NCBI GenBank assembly: GCA_003142595.1
Contig: PLMU01000003.1
Coordinates: forward strand, 132,501 to 196,500
Length of the DNA stretch: 64,000 bases
Direction of reading: 5' to 3'
Source of the DNA: Phycisphaerales bacterium
GTDB lineage: Bacteria > Planctomycetota > Phycisphaerae > Sedimentisphaerales > UBA12454
Positions 4,184 to 11,853 of the stretch are shown piece after piece. Made by a program: the position numbers and the translations under genes. Under the pieces are notes generated by a model. That model had not been told where the DNA came from. It was given only the letters and a program-made list of their open reading frames with translations, and searched no databases. Positions within the stretch are counted from its first letter, which is position 1, and each line of letters opens with the position of its first letter.

Positions 4184-5005
4184 TTATTTTGCCTCAATCG
4201 CTTCTTTAATTTGCGACAGAAATTCTTTTACTTTCGCGGGAATGGATTTTTTGTCATTCAAATTATCTTCGATGATTTTTACAATTCTTGAGCCAATGAT
4301 AACACCATCTGCGCCGGCTTTTGCTAATTCAACTGCGTGCTGGGGCGTGCTTATGCCAAAACCCACACAAACCGGAACATCAGTAATAGATTTTAATCTG
4401 CTTATCAGAGGCTTAATCATATCGGACAGGGTATCTCTGCCGCCGGTGACGCCGAGCAGCGAAACGGTATAAATAAATCCTGTGCATTTTTCGGCGATTT
4501 TTTTAGCGCGCTCGATTTCGGTATTCGGCGTTACCATAAAAACGGTATCAAGGCCCGCTTTTCGAGCGGGAGCGTAAATTTCATCTACATCGTCAATGCT
4601 CAAATCTGCGATAAGAACGCTGTTTACGCCTGCCCTTGCGAAATCGACAAAAAACTTTTCTGTGCCGTATTGATAAATAAGGTTGTAATACATCAAAAGA
4701 CCAATAGGAATATCTTTGTAAGATTTAATTTTTCTGATTAGATCTTTGGCTTTTTCAATATTAATGCCGGAGGCAAGAGCGCGAATATCGGCTTTCTGGA
4801 TTGTCGGACCGTCGGCGATAGGATCGGAAAAGGCTACGCCAAGCTCGAGAATGTCAACGCCAGCGTCAATCGCGGCTTTTATGATTTCAAAACTGGTATC
4901 GAAGTCCGGGTCGCCAATGACAAAAAAAGGTATCAATGCGGCACGTTTTAATCCGCTATGAGATGCCTTACGGCACTCGGCAAATGTCTGCTTATATGTT
5001 TTCAC
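4184..5005 (-). CDS. trpA: Tryptophan synthase alpha subunit
   Basis: Cleaves indole-3-glycerol phosphate to indole and glyceraldehyde 3-phosphate; the indole is channelled to TrpB. The protein is a 273-residue TIM barrel. Catalytic residues are recognisable as Glu54 ([12 protein letters not shown]) and Asp65 (PIADGPTIQ), matching Glu49 and Asp60 of the enteric enzyme. The phosphate site GFGIS and [12 protein letters not shown] are present near the C-terminus. It is the last gene of the trp operon and overlaps trpB by 4 bases (ATGA), so translation is probably coupled. Confidence 0.97.
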
Positions 5006-6171
5006 TTCCTGTTCCTTTCGACTATATCAACATCTTTATCGCCCCGGCCGGAAAGATTGACAACAACAGTAGTATCGGCAGGCAGTTTTCCTTTCTGGCT
5101 GTAAACCCACGCAAGAGAATGCGAGCTTTCCAGAGCAGGAAGAATACCTTCGCATTTTGTAAAGATATCGAAAATATCGAGAACGTCTTTATCCTCAACT
5201 GCGACATACTGCGCCCTGCCGGTGTCCTTCAGCAGACAATGCTCCGGGCCAACGCCGGGATAATCAAGACCGGCGGAAATAGATTCGGTGTCAAGAATCT
5301 GGCCTTCCTTATTCTGCATAAGATACATTTTAGTGCCGTGCAAAATACCGACTTTGCCGGCATTTAACGGAGCGGCGTGCTTGCCGGTTTTAATGCCTTT
5401 GCCGGCCGGTTCTACGCCTATAAGTTTTACATTTTTATCGTCGACAAATGCGCTGAAGATTCCGATAGCGTTGCTTCCGCCGCCGACGCAGGCGGTAACG
5501 ATGTCGGGCAATTTTCCCATTTTTTCAAGGCACTGTGCTCTGGCTTCTATTCCGATACAGGATTGAAAATGTTTTACAATGGTCGGATAGGGATGCGGGC
5601 CGCAAGCAGTTCCGAAAAGATAAAATGTATCTGCGACATTCGCTGTCCAATAGCGAAGAGCCTCGTTAATCGCATCTTTTAATGTTTCCGTGCCGCCTTT
5701 GACAGGGATGACTTCCGCCCCGCAGAGTCTCATTTTGTGAACGTTTACGCTTTGGCGTTCAACGTCGATTGTGCCCATAAATATTTTTGTCTGCATTCCG
5801 AACAACGCGCCAACCATAGAAGTCGCAAGGCCGTGCTGGCCTGCGCCGGTTTCGGCAATCAATTTTGTCTTTCCCATATATTTGGCAAGCAAACCCTGAC
5901 CGAGGCAGTTGTTTACCTTGTGTGCTCCGCCGTGCAAAAGGTCTTCGCGCTTTATATAAACCTTAAAACCAACAAGTTCGCTAAAACGTGTAGCATAATA
6001 TAAAGGAGTCGGCCTGCCTGCGTAGTCGTGATAAAGAACATCAAGCTCGGTAGTAAATTTTTTATCCTTGTAATATTTATAAAAGGCTTTTTCCATTTCC
6101 TCAAGAGCCAGAATAAGCACCTCGGGCACATAAAAGCCGCCGAATTGTCCGAATCGTCCGCCGTATTTCAT
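5002..6171 (-). CDS. trpB: Tryptophan synthase beta subunit
   Basis: PLP enzyme joining indole and serine to give tryptophan. With 389 residues it is the TrpB1 type that pairs with TrpA. The PLP lysine is Lys85 in [11 protein letters not shown]. The catalytic glutamate region is AETGAGQHG, and the phosphate-binding glycine loop is GGGSNAIG. It overlaps trpF upstream and trpA downstream by 4 bases each. The N-terminus [14 protein letters not shown] is typical, which supports ATG 6171. Confidence 0.97.
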
Positions 6172-6818
6172 CGTTCACCTTTACCTGATAAAATAGTTCT
6201 TAAATTTTTGAAAAGCTTAGTCATTTTTTTATGGTCCTTTTTGCCGGGAGAGCTTTCGATCCCGCTGCAAACATCGATGCCGTAAAAACTCTGACTGATG
6301 GCCTCGATTACATTTTCCGGATTTATCCCGCCAGCCAGAAACGTTCTGCCGAGAATATGGCCGGTAAGTTCCGGAAGCGATTTCCAGTCGAATCGCTCGC
6401 CTGTTCCGCCATAAAGCGACGGATGAAAAGCGTCCAGCAGCAATGCGTCGGTGGCGAAATTTTTCGCGTATTCGATATCTTTAGGAGTTTTAATTCTTAT
6501 AGCCTTCATAATCTGCGCAGTCATACTATTAAGCGACTGGCAGAACTGCGGGCTTTCATCGCCGTGAAGCTGCACCCAGTCGAGCATCAGACGGCCCGCT
6601 GTTTTGCGGATTGTTTCCGCATCGGCATTTACAAATACTCCGACTATTTCAACAAACGCAGGCAGCTTTATAATAATTTTTTCAGCTTCCTCGGGCTTGA
6701 TATATCTTGGGCTTTGGGGATAAAAATTTAACCCGAGCATATCGGCACCGAGCTGAACAGCGGCGACAGCGTCGTCGGCATTTGTTATTCCGCAAATTTT
6801 AATTTTAGGCCAAATCAT
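6168..6818 (-). CDS. trpF: Phosphoribosylanthranilate isomerase
   Basis: Amadori rearrangement of phosphoribosylanthranilate to the deoxyribulose form. The protein is a 216-residue barrel. It opens with [13 protein letters not shown] (catalytic Cys in KICGIT), has [20 protein letters not shown] and [11 protein letters not shown], and ends with the phosphate-site segment [16 protein letters not shown]. It is encoded as a separate protein, not fused to TrpC. It starts 11 bases after trpD ends and overlaps trpB by 4. No trpC lies between trpD and trpF, where many operons have it. Confidence 0.95.
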
Positions 6819-6829
6819 AATTTCAGCGA

Positions 6830-7852
6830 TTACCTTTTCCTGTTAGAAATTTCGATCAGTTTTTCCAGACATCCAATTGCGGCGCCGGAATCCACGGACT
6901 GGCCGGCTTTTTTGAAACCATCCTTGAGATTTTCTGCAAGGCCGGCGACCATTATAGCCGCTGCCGAATTTAAGAGTATCATATCGCGGGCAGGGCCTTT
7001 GTTTTTGCCGTGTAAAACTTCTTTTATCATTCCGGCATTATATTCTGCGTTACTGCCGACAAGTTCGGCCATTTTCGGCGAGGAGATACCGAAATCCTTA
7101 GGATGAATTTCGTAGGAGGTTTTTTTCTTATCCTTAATTTCCACGACTTTTGTCGTCGATGTAATACTGATTTCGTCGAGACCGCTGCCGTGAACAATCA
7201 TCGCCCGTTTAATGCCGAGAATTTTGAATGTCTCGGCAATTCTGTCGAGCAGAGATTCCTGCGGCACGCCCATAACCTGAGCCTGCGCACCGGCAGGATT
7301 TGCAAGCGGCCCTAAAATGTTAAACGCTGTGCGGAAATCGAGGCTCTTACGGATAGGCTGAACAAATTTCATCGCAGGATGAAACATCGGGGCAAACATA
7401 AAACCTATATGCGCATTTTCGATACATTCTGCGACGACGTCGGGCGGGCAATCAACTTTTACGCCCATCGCTTCCAAAACATCGGCAGAGCCGCATTTGC
7501 TCGTAATGCCGCGGTTGCCGTGTTTTGCGACATAAGCTCCTGCACCGGCGGCGACTAATGCAGCCGCTGTCGAAACATTAAATGTTTTTAAAGGCGCTCC
7601 GCCAGTTCCGCAGGTATCAACGAGGTTTGTAATTTTCGTGTTGACCTTTACGGCGTGGTCCCGCATCGATTGAGCAAGGCCTGCGAATTCTTCGGCAGTC
7701 GCTTTTTTCATTCTCATCGCAGCCAAAAATGCTGCAATCTGAACCTCGGCAACATCGCCTTTTAAAACCAGATCCAACAGGTCTTTCGCCTGGTCATATT
7801 TAAGGTCGCCGCCTTCAAGAAGAATTTCAAGGTATTCAGTTATTTTAGTCAT
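6830..7852 (-). CDS. trpD: Anthranilate phosphoribosyltransferase
   Basis: Transfers phosphoribose from PRPP to anthranilate. It has 340 residues, the normal length. The PRPP/Mg site signature DTCGTGGAPLKTFNVSTAAA and the segment AKHGNRGITSKCGSADVLEAMG are both present, as is the anthranilate-site HPAMKFVQPIRKSLDFRTAFNILGPLANPAG. It is a stand-alone protein, not a TrpGD fusion. Its start overlaps the trpG stop by 4 bases. Confidence 0.97.
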   Translation of the reverse strand: MTKITEYLEILLEGGDLKYDQAKDLLDLVLKGDVAEVQIAAFLAAMRMKKATAEEFAGLAQSMRDHAVKVNTKITNLVDTCGTGGAPLKTFNVSTAAALVAAGAGAYVAKHGNRGITSKCGSADVLEAMGVKVDCPPDVVAECIENAHIGFMFAPMFHPAMKFVQPIRKSLDFRTAFNILGPLANPAGAQAQVMGVPQESLLDRIAETFKILGIKRAMIVHGSGLDEISITSTTKVVEIKDKKKTSYEIHPKDFGISSPKMAELVGSNAEYNAGMIKEVLHGKNKGPARDMILLNSAAAIMVAGLAENLKDGFKKAGQSVDSGAAIGCLEKLIEISNRKR

Positions 7853-8487
7853 AGCGATACTTTCCTGTTCTTCAACGATATCGTTAAAAGGTTCTGTATT
7901 ATTTTCCCGCCGGTCGGGGTAAGGATACTTTCCGGATGAAACTGCACTCCATAAATCGGTTTCTGTTGGTGCTGAATGGCCATCACAATATCTTCATACG
8001 TTGCTGTTACTTCCAGGCAATCGGGGACTTTTACGGCACAAAGACTGTGATACCTGCCGGCCTGAAGCGGATTTTCCACTCCTTCAAAAATTCCTTTCTC
8101 GTTGTGCGTTACTTTCGAGGCCTTGCCGTGCATAACTTTCGACGCGTGACTGATTGTGCCGCCGAAATATTGGACGATTGCCTGATGGCCGAGACAGACG
8201 CCGAAGATGGGAAGCTTGTCCTGGAAATAACCGATTGCCTCGAGCGTAACACCCGCGCTGGAAGGATTGCCGGGGCCGGGCGAAATAACCAGCAGGTCCG
8301 GTTTAAAATCTTCAGCAATTTTTTTGAGACTTTCCAGCGGCGTATCTGCGCGATAGACCTTTGCCTGGCAGTCTCTCTTGCGAAAATCATCCACAAGGTT
8401 GTATGTAAATGAATCGAAATTATCTATAAAAAGAACTTTTAGTTCGGCAACGCTGGCTACAGGTGTATTCTGATTCGTATCATTCAT
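7849..8487 (-). CDS. trpG: Anthranilate synthase glutamine amidotransferase component
   Basis: Supplies ammonia from glutamine to TrpE; it may also serve para-aminobenzoate synthase, as often happens with PabA/TrpG proteins. Class I amidotransferase with the nucleophile in FGVCLGHQ (Cys98 from this start) and the His-Glu pair in VQFHPESI. SPGPGNP and the N-terminal FIDNFDSFTYNLVD are diagnostic. I chose ATG 8487 (MNDTNQ) because GGGGG lies 8 bases upstream; a GTG at 8493 would overlap the trpE stop but leaves only 2 bases after the SD. Confidence 0.94.
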   Translation of the reverse strand: MNDTNQNTPVASVAELKVLFIDNFDSFTYNLVDDFRKRDCQAKVYRADTPLESLKKIAEDFKPDLLVISPGPGNPSSAGVTLEAIGYFQDKLPIFGVCLGHQAIVQYFGGTISHASKVMHGKASKVTHNEKGIFEGVENPLQAGRYHSLCAVKVPDCLEVTATYEDIVMAIQHQQKPIYGVQFHPESILTPTGGKIIQNLLTISLKNRKVSL

Positions 8488-8489
8488 AG

Positions 8490-10094
8490 TCACTTCCCCC
8501 TTACTGCCCGCAGGCAGGAGTTTGCTTTGTGCTGCGTTTCCTCGAATTCTGTTTTTGGGACACTGTCATAAACAACGCCTCCGCCTGCACGGATATAGGC
8601 CGTATGGTCTTTTATCTGCAGTGAGCGTATAGTTATACAGCTATCGAACTGGCCGTCAACAGTTAAATACATCACCGCCCCGCCGTAATAGCCGCGTTTG
8701 TTTTTTTCGAGCTGGCGGATAATTTTCATAGCCTCTATTTTCGGCGCGCCGGTAAGAGTGCCCATATTCATCGTGGCAAGATAAGCGTTTAAAGCGTCGA
8801 ATTCATCGGCAAGGATTCCTTTGACGTTGCTGACAAGGTGCATTACCGATTCGTATTTTTCCACAATCAAAAGTTCATTGACTATTCGCGTGCCTTTTTG
8901 CGTAACTCTTGCGATATCGTTTCTCGCAAGGTCAACGAGCATCATATGCTCTGCAAGCTCTTTTCTGTCGAGTTTCAATTCCGCCTCATACCGGAAATCG
9001 GTGTCCGGGTCTATTTTACCGTCGATTTTTCCGCGAGGCTTCGTGCCTGCAATCGGACGAATTTCAACCTGGCGAATTTTTGTTCCGCTAACGCGCAGAT
9101 TAAGTTCGGGGCTTGCTCCGGTCAAAATAGTGCTGGGCGAATTAATGTAAAACATATAAGGCGACGGATTAAGCAGCCGAAGTCTTTTATAAACATCCAG
9201 CGGCTCATCGGGGCATGGTTCAATAATAGTTCTGCTGGGGACAACCTGAAAAATATCGCCGTCAACGATATGTTTCTTGGCGGTCTCTACCATTTTTATA
9301 TATTCGGGCAGTTCGGTGTCGGTGCCGGCTTGGGGCAGAGGGCCGGTATATCTTACAGGCTTTGGCATTTCTGTTTGAAGCGTCTTAAAATAATAATCAA
9401 AACAGCTTTCGGCATCGGCGATAATCTGGTTCCTGTCGTCGTTGGTAATAATTACATTGACAACAACGTAAGATTTTTGCGTTTTATGGTCCATCAGGAA
9501 AATATTGTCCGCAAAATAAAGTTCGTAATCCGGCACATCGAGCAGAGCATTTTTGTTTGCGGGGAGTTTTTCAAACTGGTCGATAAAATCATAACTTATC
9601 GCGCCGAGCATTCCGCAGGTAACGCGGAAAGGAGGACCGGAAAGTTCAAAGGCGAAATTAACTGCCCTGATTACGTCCATTTGATTTACAGATTTTAATC
9701 GAGCCTGTTCGTCGATGATATCGTGGTCTGGATTGAGCCGGCCGGTAATACTTTCTTTCTTAAAATTGATTTCTTTGCAGAAGTCGAACCTGTTGCGCCC
9801 GGTGGTCGCGAAATATTTAATCATTCTTTGCCCAGTCGGACTCAGCGCAACGATTTGAAAATCATCGCCCTTTCCGGAAATATACAACGCCGGCCGTGCG
9901 GTGCCGAAAGTCAGTTCGCCCTGGCTTTTTTCCGCCAGGTGGTCTTTCGACTCAAGCAGACAGCAGTGTTTTTGCCTGCCGTAGTCGCTAAGTTTGGCAA
10001 AGAAATCCACCGGCTCGGTAACGTCAATCTGCCTGACGAGCGGAACGATTTGGCCTACTTTGGCCTCAGTTATTTTTTTGTTTAATTCCATCAT
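8490..10094 (-). CDS. trpE: Anthranilate synthase component I
   Basis: Converts chorismate and ammonia to anthranilate. The protein has 534 residues. The C-terminal chorismate-binding domain shows IFQVVPSRTI, RLLNPSPYMFYI, GASPELNLRV, EIRPIAGTKPRG, LVDLARNDIARV and the final TGAPKIEAMKIIRQLE...RGYYGGAVMYL. The N-terminal region (about residues 15-130) would hold the tryptophan feedback site, and the conserved LLES element is seen in HCCLLESKDHL. First gene of the trp operon, about 30 bases downstream of an intrinsic terminator that ends the leader; expression is therefore expected to depend on attenuation. The last codons lie in a small palindrome near 8507-8519. Confidence 0.97.
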   Translation of the reverse strand: MMELNKKITEAKVGQIVPLVRQIDVTEPVDFFAKLSDYGRQKHCCLLESKDHLAEKSQGELTFGTARPALYISGKGDDFQIVALSPTGQRMIKYFATTGRNRFDFCKEINFKKESITGRLNPDHDIIDEQARLKSVNQMDVIRAVNFAFELSGPPFRVTCGMLGAISYDFIDQFEKLPANKNALLDVPDYELYFADNIFLMDHKTQKSYVVVNVIITNDDRNQIIADAESCFDYYFKTLQTEMPKPVRYTGPLPQAGTDTELPEYIKMVETAKKHIVDGDIFQVVPSRTIIEPCPDEPLDVYKRLRLLNPSPYMFYINSPSTILTGASPELNLRVSGTKIRQVEIRPIAGTKPRGKIDGKIDPDTDFRYEAELKLDRKELAEHMMLVDLARNDIARVTQKGTRIVNELLIVEKYESVMHLVSNVKGILADEFDALNAYLATMNMGTLTGAPKIEAMKIIRQLEKNKRGYYGGAVMYLTVDGQFDSCITIRSLQIKDHTAYIRAGGGVVYDSVPKTEFEETQHKANSCLRAVRGK

Positions 10095-10123: not shown

Positions 10124-10157
10124 TAAAAAAACGGCCTGTCGCTACCCGACAGGCCGT
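10124..10157 (-). terminator. Attenuator terminator of the trp leader
   Basis: On the minus strand an 11-bp perfect stem (10157-10147 with 10141-10131, loop of 5) is followed by seven T residues. It lies between the leader peptide and trpE, in the correct direction to stop transcription before trpE. The 5' arm carries GCCTGTCGG, complementary to the antiterminator segment upstream. Confidence 0.93.
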
Positions 10158-10223
10158 GAAAATTTATTTTTATATAGTTTTAAATGCAAAAAGAGGTTCA
10201 CAACCTGTCAGCTATTGGACAAG
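10131..10223 (-). promoter_or_regulatory. Mutually exclusive 1:2, 2:3, 3:4 pairings of the trp attenuator
   Basis: Reading the minus strand: segment 1, CTTGTC (10223-10218), directly follows the Trp codons; segment 2, CTGACAGGT (10211-10203), directly follows the leader stop; segment 3 is the terminator 5' arm; segment 4 is its 3' arm. Segment 1 can pair with GACAGG of segment 2 (protector), and segment 2 can pair with GCCTGTCGG of segment 3 (nine pairs including two G-U), which would break the terminator. A ribosome stalled on the Trp codons covers segment 1 and frees segment 2. A small competing hairpin (10194-10206) lies in the same region. Confidence 0.85.
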
Positions 10224-10265
10224 CCACCACCAACCAAAATAATACTTAGAATAGTTTTGAACCAT
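10212..10265 (-). CDS. trpL: trp operon leader peptide
   Basis: A 17-residue peptide, MVQNYSKYYFGWWWLVQ, with three consecutive TGG codons (10232-10224) close to its stop TAG. Position between a strong promoter and a terminator hairpin in front of trpE, plus the placement of the alternative pairings relative to the Trp codons, mark it as the sensing peptide of a transcription attenuator. No Shine-Dalgarno sequence precedes the ATG, and the predicted transcription start is only 3-4 bases upstream, so it is probably translated as a leaderless or near-leaderless message. Confidence 0.9.
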   Translation of the reverse strand: MVQNYSKYYFGWWWLVQ

Positions 10266-10275
10266 AATTAACTAA

Positions 10276-10304
10276 ATAATACCATAATAACGCGTTTTTG
10301 TCAA
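10276..10304 (-). promoter_or_regulatory. Promoter of the trp operon
   Basis: A consensus -35 TTGACA (10304-10299), a 17-base spacer and TATTAT (10281-10276), with TGG just before the -10 giving an extended -10. The expected start point is about 10268-10269, 3-4 bases before the leader peptide ATG. I see no clear operator dyad over the promoter, so TrpR-like control is not supported by the sequence. Confidence 0.88.

Positions 10305-10395: not shown

Positions 10396-11853
<1,458 letters not shown>

Follow-up and report, generated by a model that had tools for sequence, protein, structure and literature searches.

Attenuation of transcription in response to tryptophan is a textbook mechanism that has been described in few phyla. 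Leader-peptide attenuators are on record from Proteobacteria, Actinobacteria and Firmicutes (PMC2965389, PMC1262725), to which Rfam adds the Bacteroidetes, whose Bacteroid-trp element (RF01692) is likewise a Trp leader peptide RNA found outside Proteobacteria. In the enterobacterial prototype, E. coli trpL, a short reading frame with tandem Trp codons precedes four RNA segments upstream of trpE. The actinobacterial attenuators (Corynebacterium, Streptomyces) carry two or three UGG codons and a GC-rich terminator (PMC1262725), and trpL of Sinorhizobium meliloti (rnTrpL, encoding peTrpL), which starts at or beside the AUG of a short Trp-rich frame before trpE, is an established leaderless leader (PMC7298713). 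The initial annotation of the locus studied here took the layout to be known chiefly from Proteobacteria, with some cases in Actinobacteria, a list that omits the Bacteroidetes (RF01692) and, among Firmicutes, the His leaders (PMC2965389). Its statement that no such system had been described in Planctomycetota holds within the open-access literature, where we found no account of trp attenuation in Planctomycetes.

The window, that is, the whole stretch of 64,000 nucleotides that was analysed, contains the following elements directly upstream of trpE.

10299..10304, minus strand: -35 box TTGACA, read from the sequence, the box being kept in relatives
10276..10284, minus strand: extended -10 box TGG-TATTAT (TATTAT itself at 10281-10276), separated from the -35 box by a 17-nt spacer
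10268..10269, minus strand: predicted transcription start, placed 7-8 nt past the -10 box, a spacing kept in relatives
10212..10265, minus strand: leader peptide frame trpL, MVQNYSKYYFGWWWLVQ, 17 codons, ATG at 10265-10263 and stop TAG at 10214-10212; WW/WWW leaders are conserved
10224..10232, minus strand: three tandem Trp codons, TGGTGGTGG (codons 12-14), seen in the sequence and in the alignment of relatives
10218..10225, minus strand: segment 1, GGCTTGTC / GGCUUGUC, pairing with segment 2, and with segment 4 in the minimum free energy (MFE) fold of the window
10197..10211, minus strand: segment 2, CTGACAGGTTGTGAA / CUGACAGGUUGUGAA, 5' arm of the antiterminator, directly 3' of the leader stop codon
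10146..10160, minus strand: segment 3, UUCACGGCCUGUCGG, common to antiterminator (2:3) and terminator (3:4)
10131..10141, minus strand: segment 4, CGACAGGCCGU, 3' arm of the terminator, pairing with 10157-10147
10157-10131, minus strand: terminator ACGGCCTGTCG-GGTAG-CGACAGGCCGT, 11-bp stem, read from the sequence
10125..10131, minus strand: T7 tract of the intrinsic terminator, read from the sequence

The anatomy is that of an attenuator: a short tandem-Trp leader frame lies between the promoter and the trp genes, an intrinsic terminator between the leader and trpE, the 2:3 and 3:4 helices are mutually exclusive, and segment 1, which overlaps and follows the control codons, can pair with segment 2, this last feature being weaker in the window itself. 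Reading the minus strand of 10304-10090 again bore out the extended -10 consensus, matched the 17-codon peptide with its three adjacent Trp codons base for base, and found segment 1 after these codons, segment 2 after the stop and the 11-bp terminator with T7 in front of trpE, all as initially annotated; the complete -35 box, the short distance of 10 nt between -10 box and ATG and a long 2:3 pairing of 13-15 bp had been absent from that reading. Part order, tandem Trp codons, segments 1-4 and the position upstream of trpE agree with E. coli and other enterobacteria, so that the description as a classical enterobacterial layout stands for the order of parts, but not for the start of the message, which is probably leaderless or nearly so. 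The planctomycete leader further differs from E. coli trpL in having three Trp codons rather than two, a -10 box only 10 nt from the AUG, no Shine-Dalgarno sequence and an operon without trpC. S. meliloti belongs to another phylum and has another trp gene arrangement; the actinobacterial attenuators are also of another phylum, and the likeness to them is one of layout. The Rfam model Trp_leader (RF00513) matches the leader over its full length with 23.3 bits (E 0.01), below its gathering cutoff of 41, and Bacteroid-trp (RF01692) reaches 22.5 bits where 49 are required; by these thresholds the leader is a member of neither family. What we describe appears to be a known mechanism in a new phylum and in a new sequence family that lies outside the coverage of Rfam.

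The genes downstream form an operon of the order trpEGDFBA.

8490..10094, minus strand: trpE, anthranilate synthase component 1 (NF010079, 493.5 bits against a cutoff of 471), its ATG at 10094, 30 nt past the T7 tract
7849..8493, minus strand: trpG (HMM)
6830..7852, minus strand: trpD (HMM)
6168..6818, minus strand: trpF (HMM)
5002..6171, minus strand: trpB (HMM)
4184..5005, minus strand: trpA (HMM)

A distance of about 153 kb on one contig separates the detached trpC (L269) from the operon, and no leader was found before it; six matches to four CAY codons in the window genome, collected as possible His-type leaders, include none that resembles an attenuator. On the other side of the trp promoter, a divergent gene (10429-11853, plus strand) looks by eye, from its translation, like an adenosylhomocysteinase. 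TrpE of the window belongs to the enteric-type family NF010079, a proteobacterial-type family and hence a further likeness to E. coli, and its group falls near E. coli-type TrpE in a quick TrpE tree. Of 14 control genomes, only 2 exceeded the NF010079 cutoff, and within the class no more than 8 of 81 genomes did so. The assignment of the host to Planctomycetota holds: its nearest TrpE relatives (66-91% identity) are so labelled, mostly as Phycisphaerae or Sedimentisphaerales, and nearly all are metagenome-assembled genomes (MAGs).

A single scan of GTDB genomes for trpE relatives yielded 80 loci at 66-91% identity, 81 sequences with the window. A leader frame with a run of Trp codons was present in 77 of the 81 (WWW in 42, WW in 32, WWWW in one, interrupted Trp in two), such that 75 of the 77 have WW or longer. 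Among the four others, L023 and L046 have almost no upstream DNA, and L050 and L066 carry the same leader cut to one Trp in place (MNSIVVTQKEYWRRPQA, MNRIVSVQKGYWRRPQA). Together with L116, the latter two belong to a sub-lineage in which the run now reads W-R-R (YWRRPQA), with one Trp codon and the hairpins kept; this is possibly a decaying or weakened attenuator. A frame of the form ATG...WW...stop within 300 nt of trpE occurred in 67 of 78 related loci versus 0.8% of shuffled sequences, which excludes chance, and a simple scan found a terminator between leader and trpE in 67 loci, having missed some that plainly carry one when read. The WW-rich frames and terminators that the initial annotation had proposed to look for before trpE of relatives are therefore there.

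Since 59 of the 77 leaders have a Trp-Pro junction (or W-R/Q-P) after the Trp run, one may ask whether the peptide itself arrests the ribosome, in the manner of TnaC, with the nascent chain sensing free tryptophan and not the charging of tRNA-Trp. We consider this very improbable. The need of segment 1 (GGCCUGC...) to pair with segment 2 fixes its nucleotides, and these account for the WP[AV]G motif. Other leaders of the order read WWRLVENS or WWRPQA, and the N-terminal residues of the peptides vary widely.

The promoter scores well over shuffles and places the predicted start of transcription close to the leader. In the window, the -10 box ends 10 nt from the leader ATG (10265), which predicts a 5' UTR of about 3-4 nt. 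Taking the best promoter of each locus, the box stands 6-11 nt 5' of the ATG in 70 of 77 loci (most commonly 9, followed by 7 and 10), and just 3 of the 77 show anything resembling a Shine-Dalgarno word within the 20 nt preceding the ATG. A spacing of 7 nt would make the A of the AUG the first base of the message in many species (e.g. TATAAT-TGTTTCT-ATG). Because of this geometry, the trpL mRNA is probably leaderless or near-leaderless, its starts being predicted from the promoters, and the leaderless trpL of S. meliloti makes such a start a variant with precedent. The same arrangement of -10 box and ATG recurs at further genes of the window genome (23 pattern matches, as compared to 2 in a reversed control), fitting the view that leaderless translation is ordinary there. 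Used as a finder of other amino-acid leaders, the pattern was of no help, as trpL alone among the 23 matches is recognisably such a leader. Eight paralogues of about 501 aa (MPQQVKKSLVISIYFAL...; L092, L094, L097-L100, L111 and L113) in this genome have near-identical leaderless-type promoters, TTGACA...AATATATT-7 nt-ATG.

Folding of the leader RNA gave a z-score of -4.5 against dinucleotide shuffles. When the two alternatives were compared, as the initial annotation had advised, the MFE structure of the window combined a 15-bp 2:3 helix with 1:4 pairing, and masking by a ribosome shifted the pairing. The 2:3 duplex of the window has -25.1 kcal/mol, versus -8.1 kcal/mol with a shuffled segment 2. 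In constrained folding of the window leader before segment 4 exists, segment 3 was paired upstream with P 1.00 for a ribosome modelled on the Trp codons, and with P 0.06 when the ribosome had reached the stop codon. Seven species were folded, and several of them (e.g. L022, L070) showed a weaker contrast between ribosome positions than the window. At full equilibrium, the terminator won in all masked-ribosome states. Given that it forms in both ribosome-bound states, the decision has to be kinetic in these models, as in E. coli. The naked window RNA prefers 2:3 plus 1:4, so that an untranslated leader may fail to terminate there; 1:2 is a stronger competitor in several relatives, and the outcome may differ between species.

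To assess the pairing across species, we aligned the leaders of 47 species, picked because a terminator had been detected in them and they fitted clearly, keeping in mind that sequence counts among relatives are not independent events. The 3:4 terminator helix was paired in 96.2% of cells with both-side changes at 9 of 10 pairs, the 2:3 helix in 97.4% with such changes at 5 of 9, and the 1:2 helix in 94.9% with changes at 2 of 5, whereas controls with slid partners fell to 16-52%. Because it has a segment in common with 2:3, the 1:2 helix enjoys the least independent support. In 52 of 67 relatives, the 2:3 duplex outperformed shuffles at p<=0.05 (mean -19.6 versus -11.7 kcal/mol), the remaining 15 not being significant. 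Covariation supports all the alternative helices, including the pairings of segment 2 with segment 1 and with the terminator arm that had been claimed at the outset. A failure of the Trp codons and alternative pairing to be conserved, named beforehand as counter-evidence, is not what we see: both are kept across the order with compensatory change.

Of 118 genomes from the order Sedimentisphaerales, 78 contain a match to a covariance model of the leader (R1), with the main match directly upstream of trpE in every genome with known trpE coordinates and a single match in the 2.28-Mb genome of the window. Weak second matches in three genomes of the order (E 0.005-0.009) proved on reading to be terminators of other genes, and marginal matches outside the order (392 genomes of the phylum, E 0.004-0.008) to be ordinary terminators; one discarded match adjoins an apparent tRNA gene. 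Two MAGs labelled Candidatus Kuenenia stuttgartiensis (L045) and Blastopirellula marina (L010) have a Sedimentisphaerales-type trpE with an attenuator of the window type, and are probably misnamed bins.

Another Trp-responsive RNA, be it a T-box, a TRAP site or an aptamer of a new kind, could in principle drive the same terminator, the short frame being incidental; an antiterminator/terminator pair occurs in all of these systems. Such a sensor is extremely unlikely here: no T-box was matched by Rfam at the gathering cutoff in the window, nor at E<=10 in the leader; 10276-10124 holds three dispersed UAG and no GAG, as compared to about 11 clustered (G/U)AG repeats for TRAP; the alignment shows little conservation in the part that links segments 2 and 3; and the Trp-run frames keep position and frame in nearly all species. 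That a degenerate or constitutive terminator merely stands beside chance Trp codons, as the few relatives with one Trp codon (L050, L066, L116) might hint, can be set aside as hardly credible in view of WW leaders in 67 of 78 loci versus 0.8% of shuffles and of compensatory changes in all three helices.

According to these data, namely an anatomy conserved in relatives, conserved leaders, compensatory changes in three mutually exclusive helices and folding consistent with the model, the locus is, with high probability, a classical ribosome-mediated transcription attenuator of trpEGDFBA that senses charged tRNA-Trp, as the initial annotation had proposed for this planctomycete. From the sequences we infer where transcription starts, that translation is leaderless, that the ribosome stalls and how the switch responds to tryptophan, as follows. 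RNA polymerase would start at the AUG of the three-Trp leader peptide or 3-4 nt upstream of it, and the first ribosome would then have to load on a leaderless or near-leaderless mRNA. When charged tRNA-Trp is scarce, the ribosome would stall on UGGUGGUGG and cover segment 1, allowing segment 2 to pair with segment 3 once this is made, such that 3:4 would come too late and transcription would enter trpE. When tryptophan is plentiful, the ribosome would reach the UAG and cover the start of segment 2, leaving segment 3 free to pair with segment 4, and transcription would end at the T7 tract.

Further planctomycete families likewise have Trp leaders with terminators, there in front of TrpE types that differ from that of the window (L185, L187, L191, L192, L201, L204, L129). 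In a joint test of 69 loci, nearly all of them more distant planctomycete trpE, a leader with W.?W and a terminator within 130 nt were found at 11, two of which come from the same genome, compared to 0.03 expected from shuffles. Convincing by eye are the following leaders.

f18: GWWWRHSVIW
f26: RAWWWTPS
f42: NHWWWYYINGRGG
f4: LWWWRPYP and FWWWRNRRG
f3: YWCWLPEK

A WRYWY leader is present in another f3 genome. The distance between the -10 box and the leader ATG is about 20-40 nt in f3 and f4, where GAGG- or AAGG-like words stand ahead of the ATG, and 6 nt in f42. Weak candidates in L118 (f14), L188 (f52) and L189 (f44), with no clear promoter or Trp run, were not counted. In the quick TrpE tree, the leader-bearing TrpEs fall outside the main planctomycete clade, and no Trp attenuator was found among the 36 rows of that clade in our sample. 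This distribution hints that attenuation may move together with trp operons that were replaced, or be rebuilt on them, although the branches are long and the sampling is thin. We tentatively entertain, at slightly less than an even chance, that Trp attenuation arose or was acquired several times in Planctomycetota, each time with an operon whose TrpE lies outside the main clade: the enteric type in most Sedimentisphaerales, a third type in f4 and another clade in f3, f18, f26 and f42. No sequence relation is obvious among the leaders of different families, so that on this view the switch would have been built anew once the operon had been replaced.

Cells of Planctomycetota have unusual inner membranes. 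An attenuator conserved across a planctomycete order, together with unrelated versions elsewhere, would mean that control by coupled transcription and translation works in this phylum. The (near-)leaderless leader would offer a simple handle on initiation without Shine-Dalgarno sequences in a phylum whose transcripts, as far as the open-access literature shows, have seldom been mapped, and the planctomycete attenuators would form a natural series in which to ask whether such switches are inherited, transferred with their operons or reinvented.
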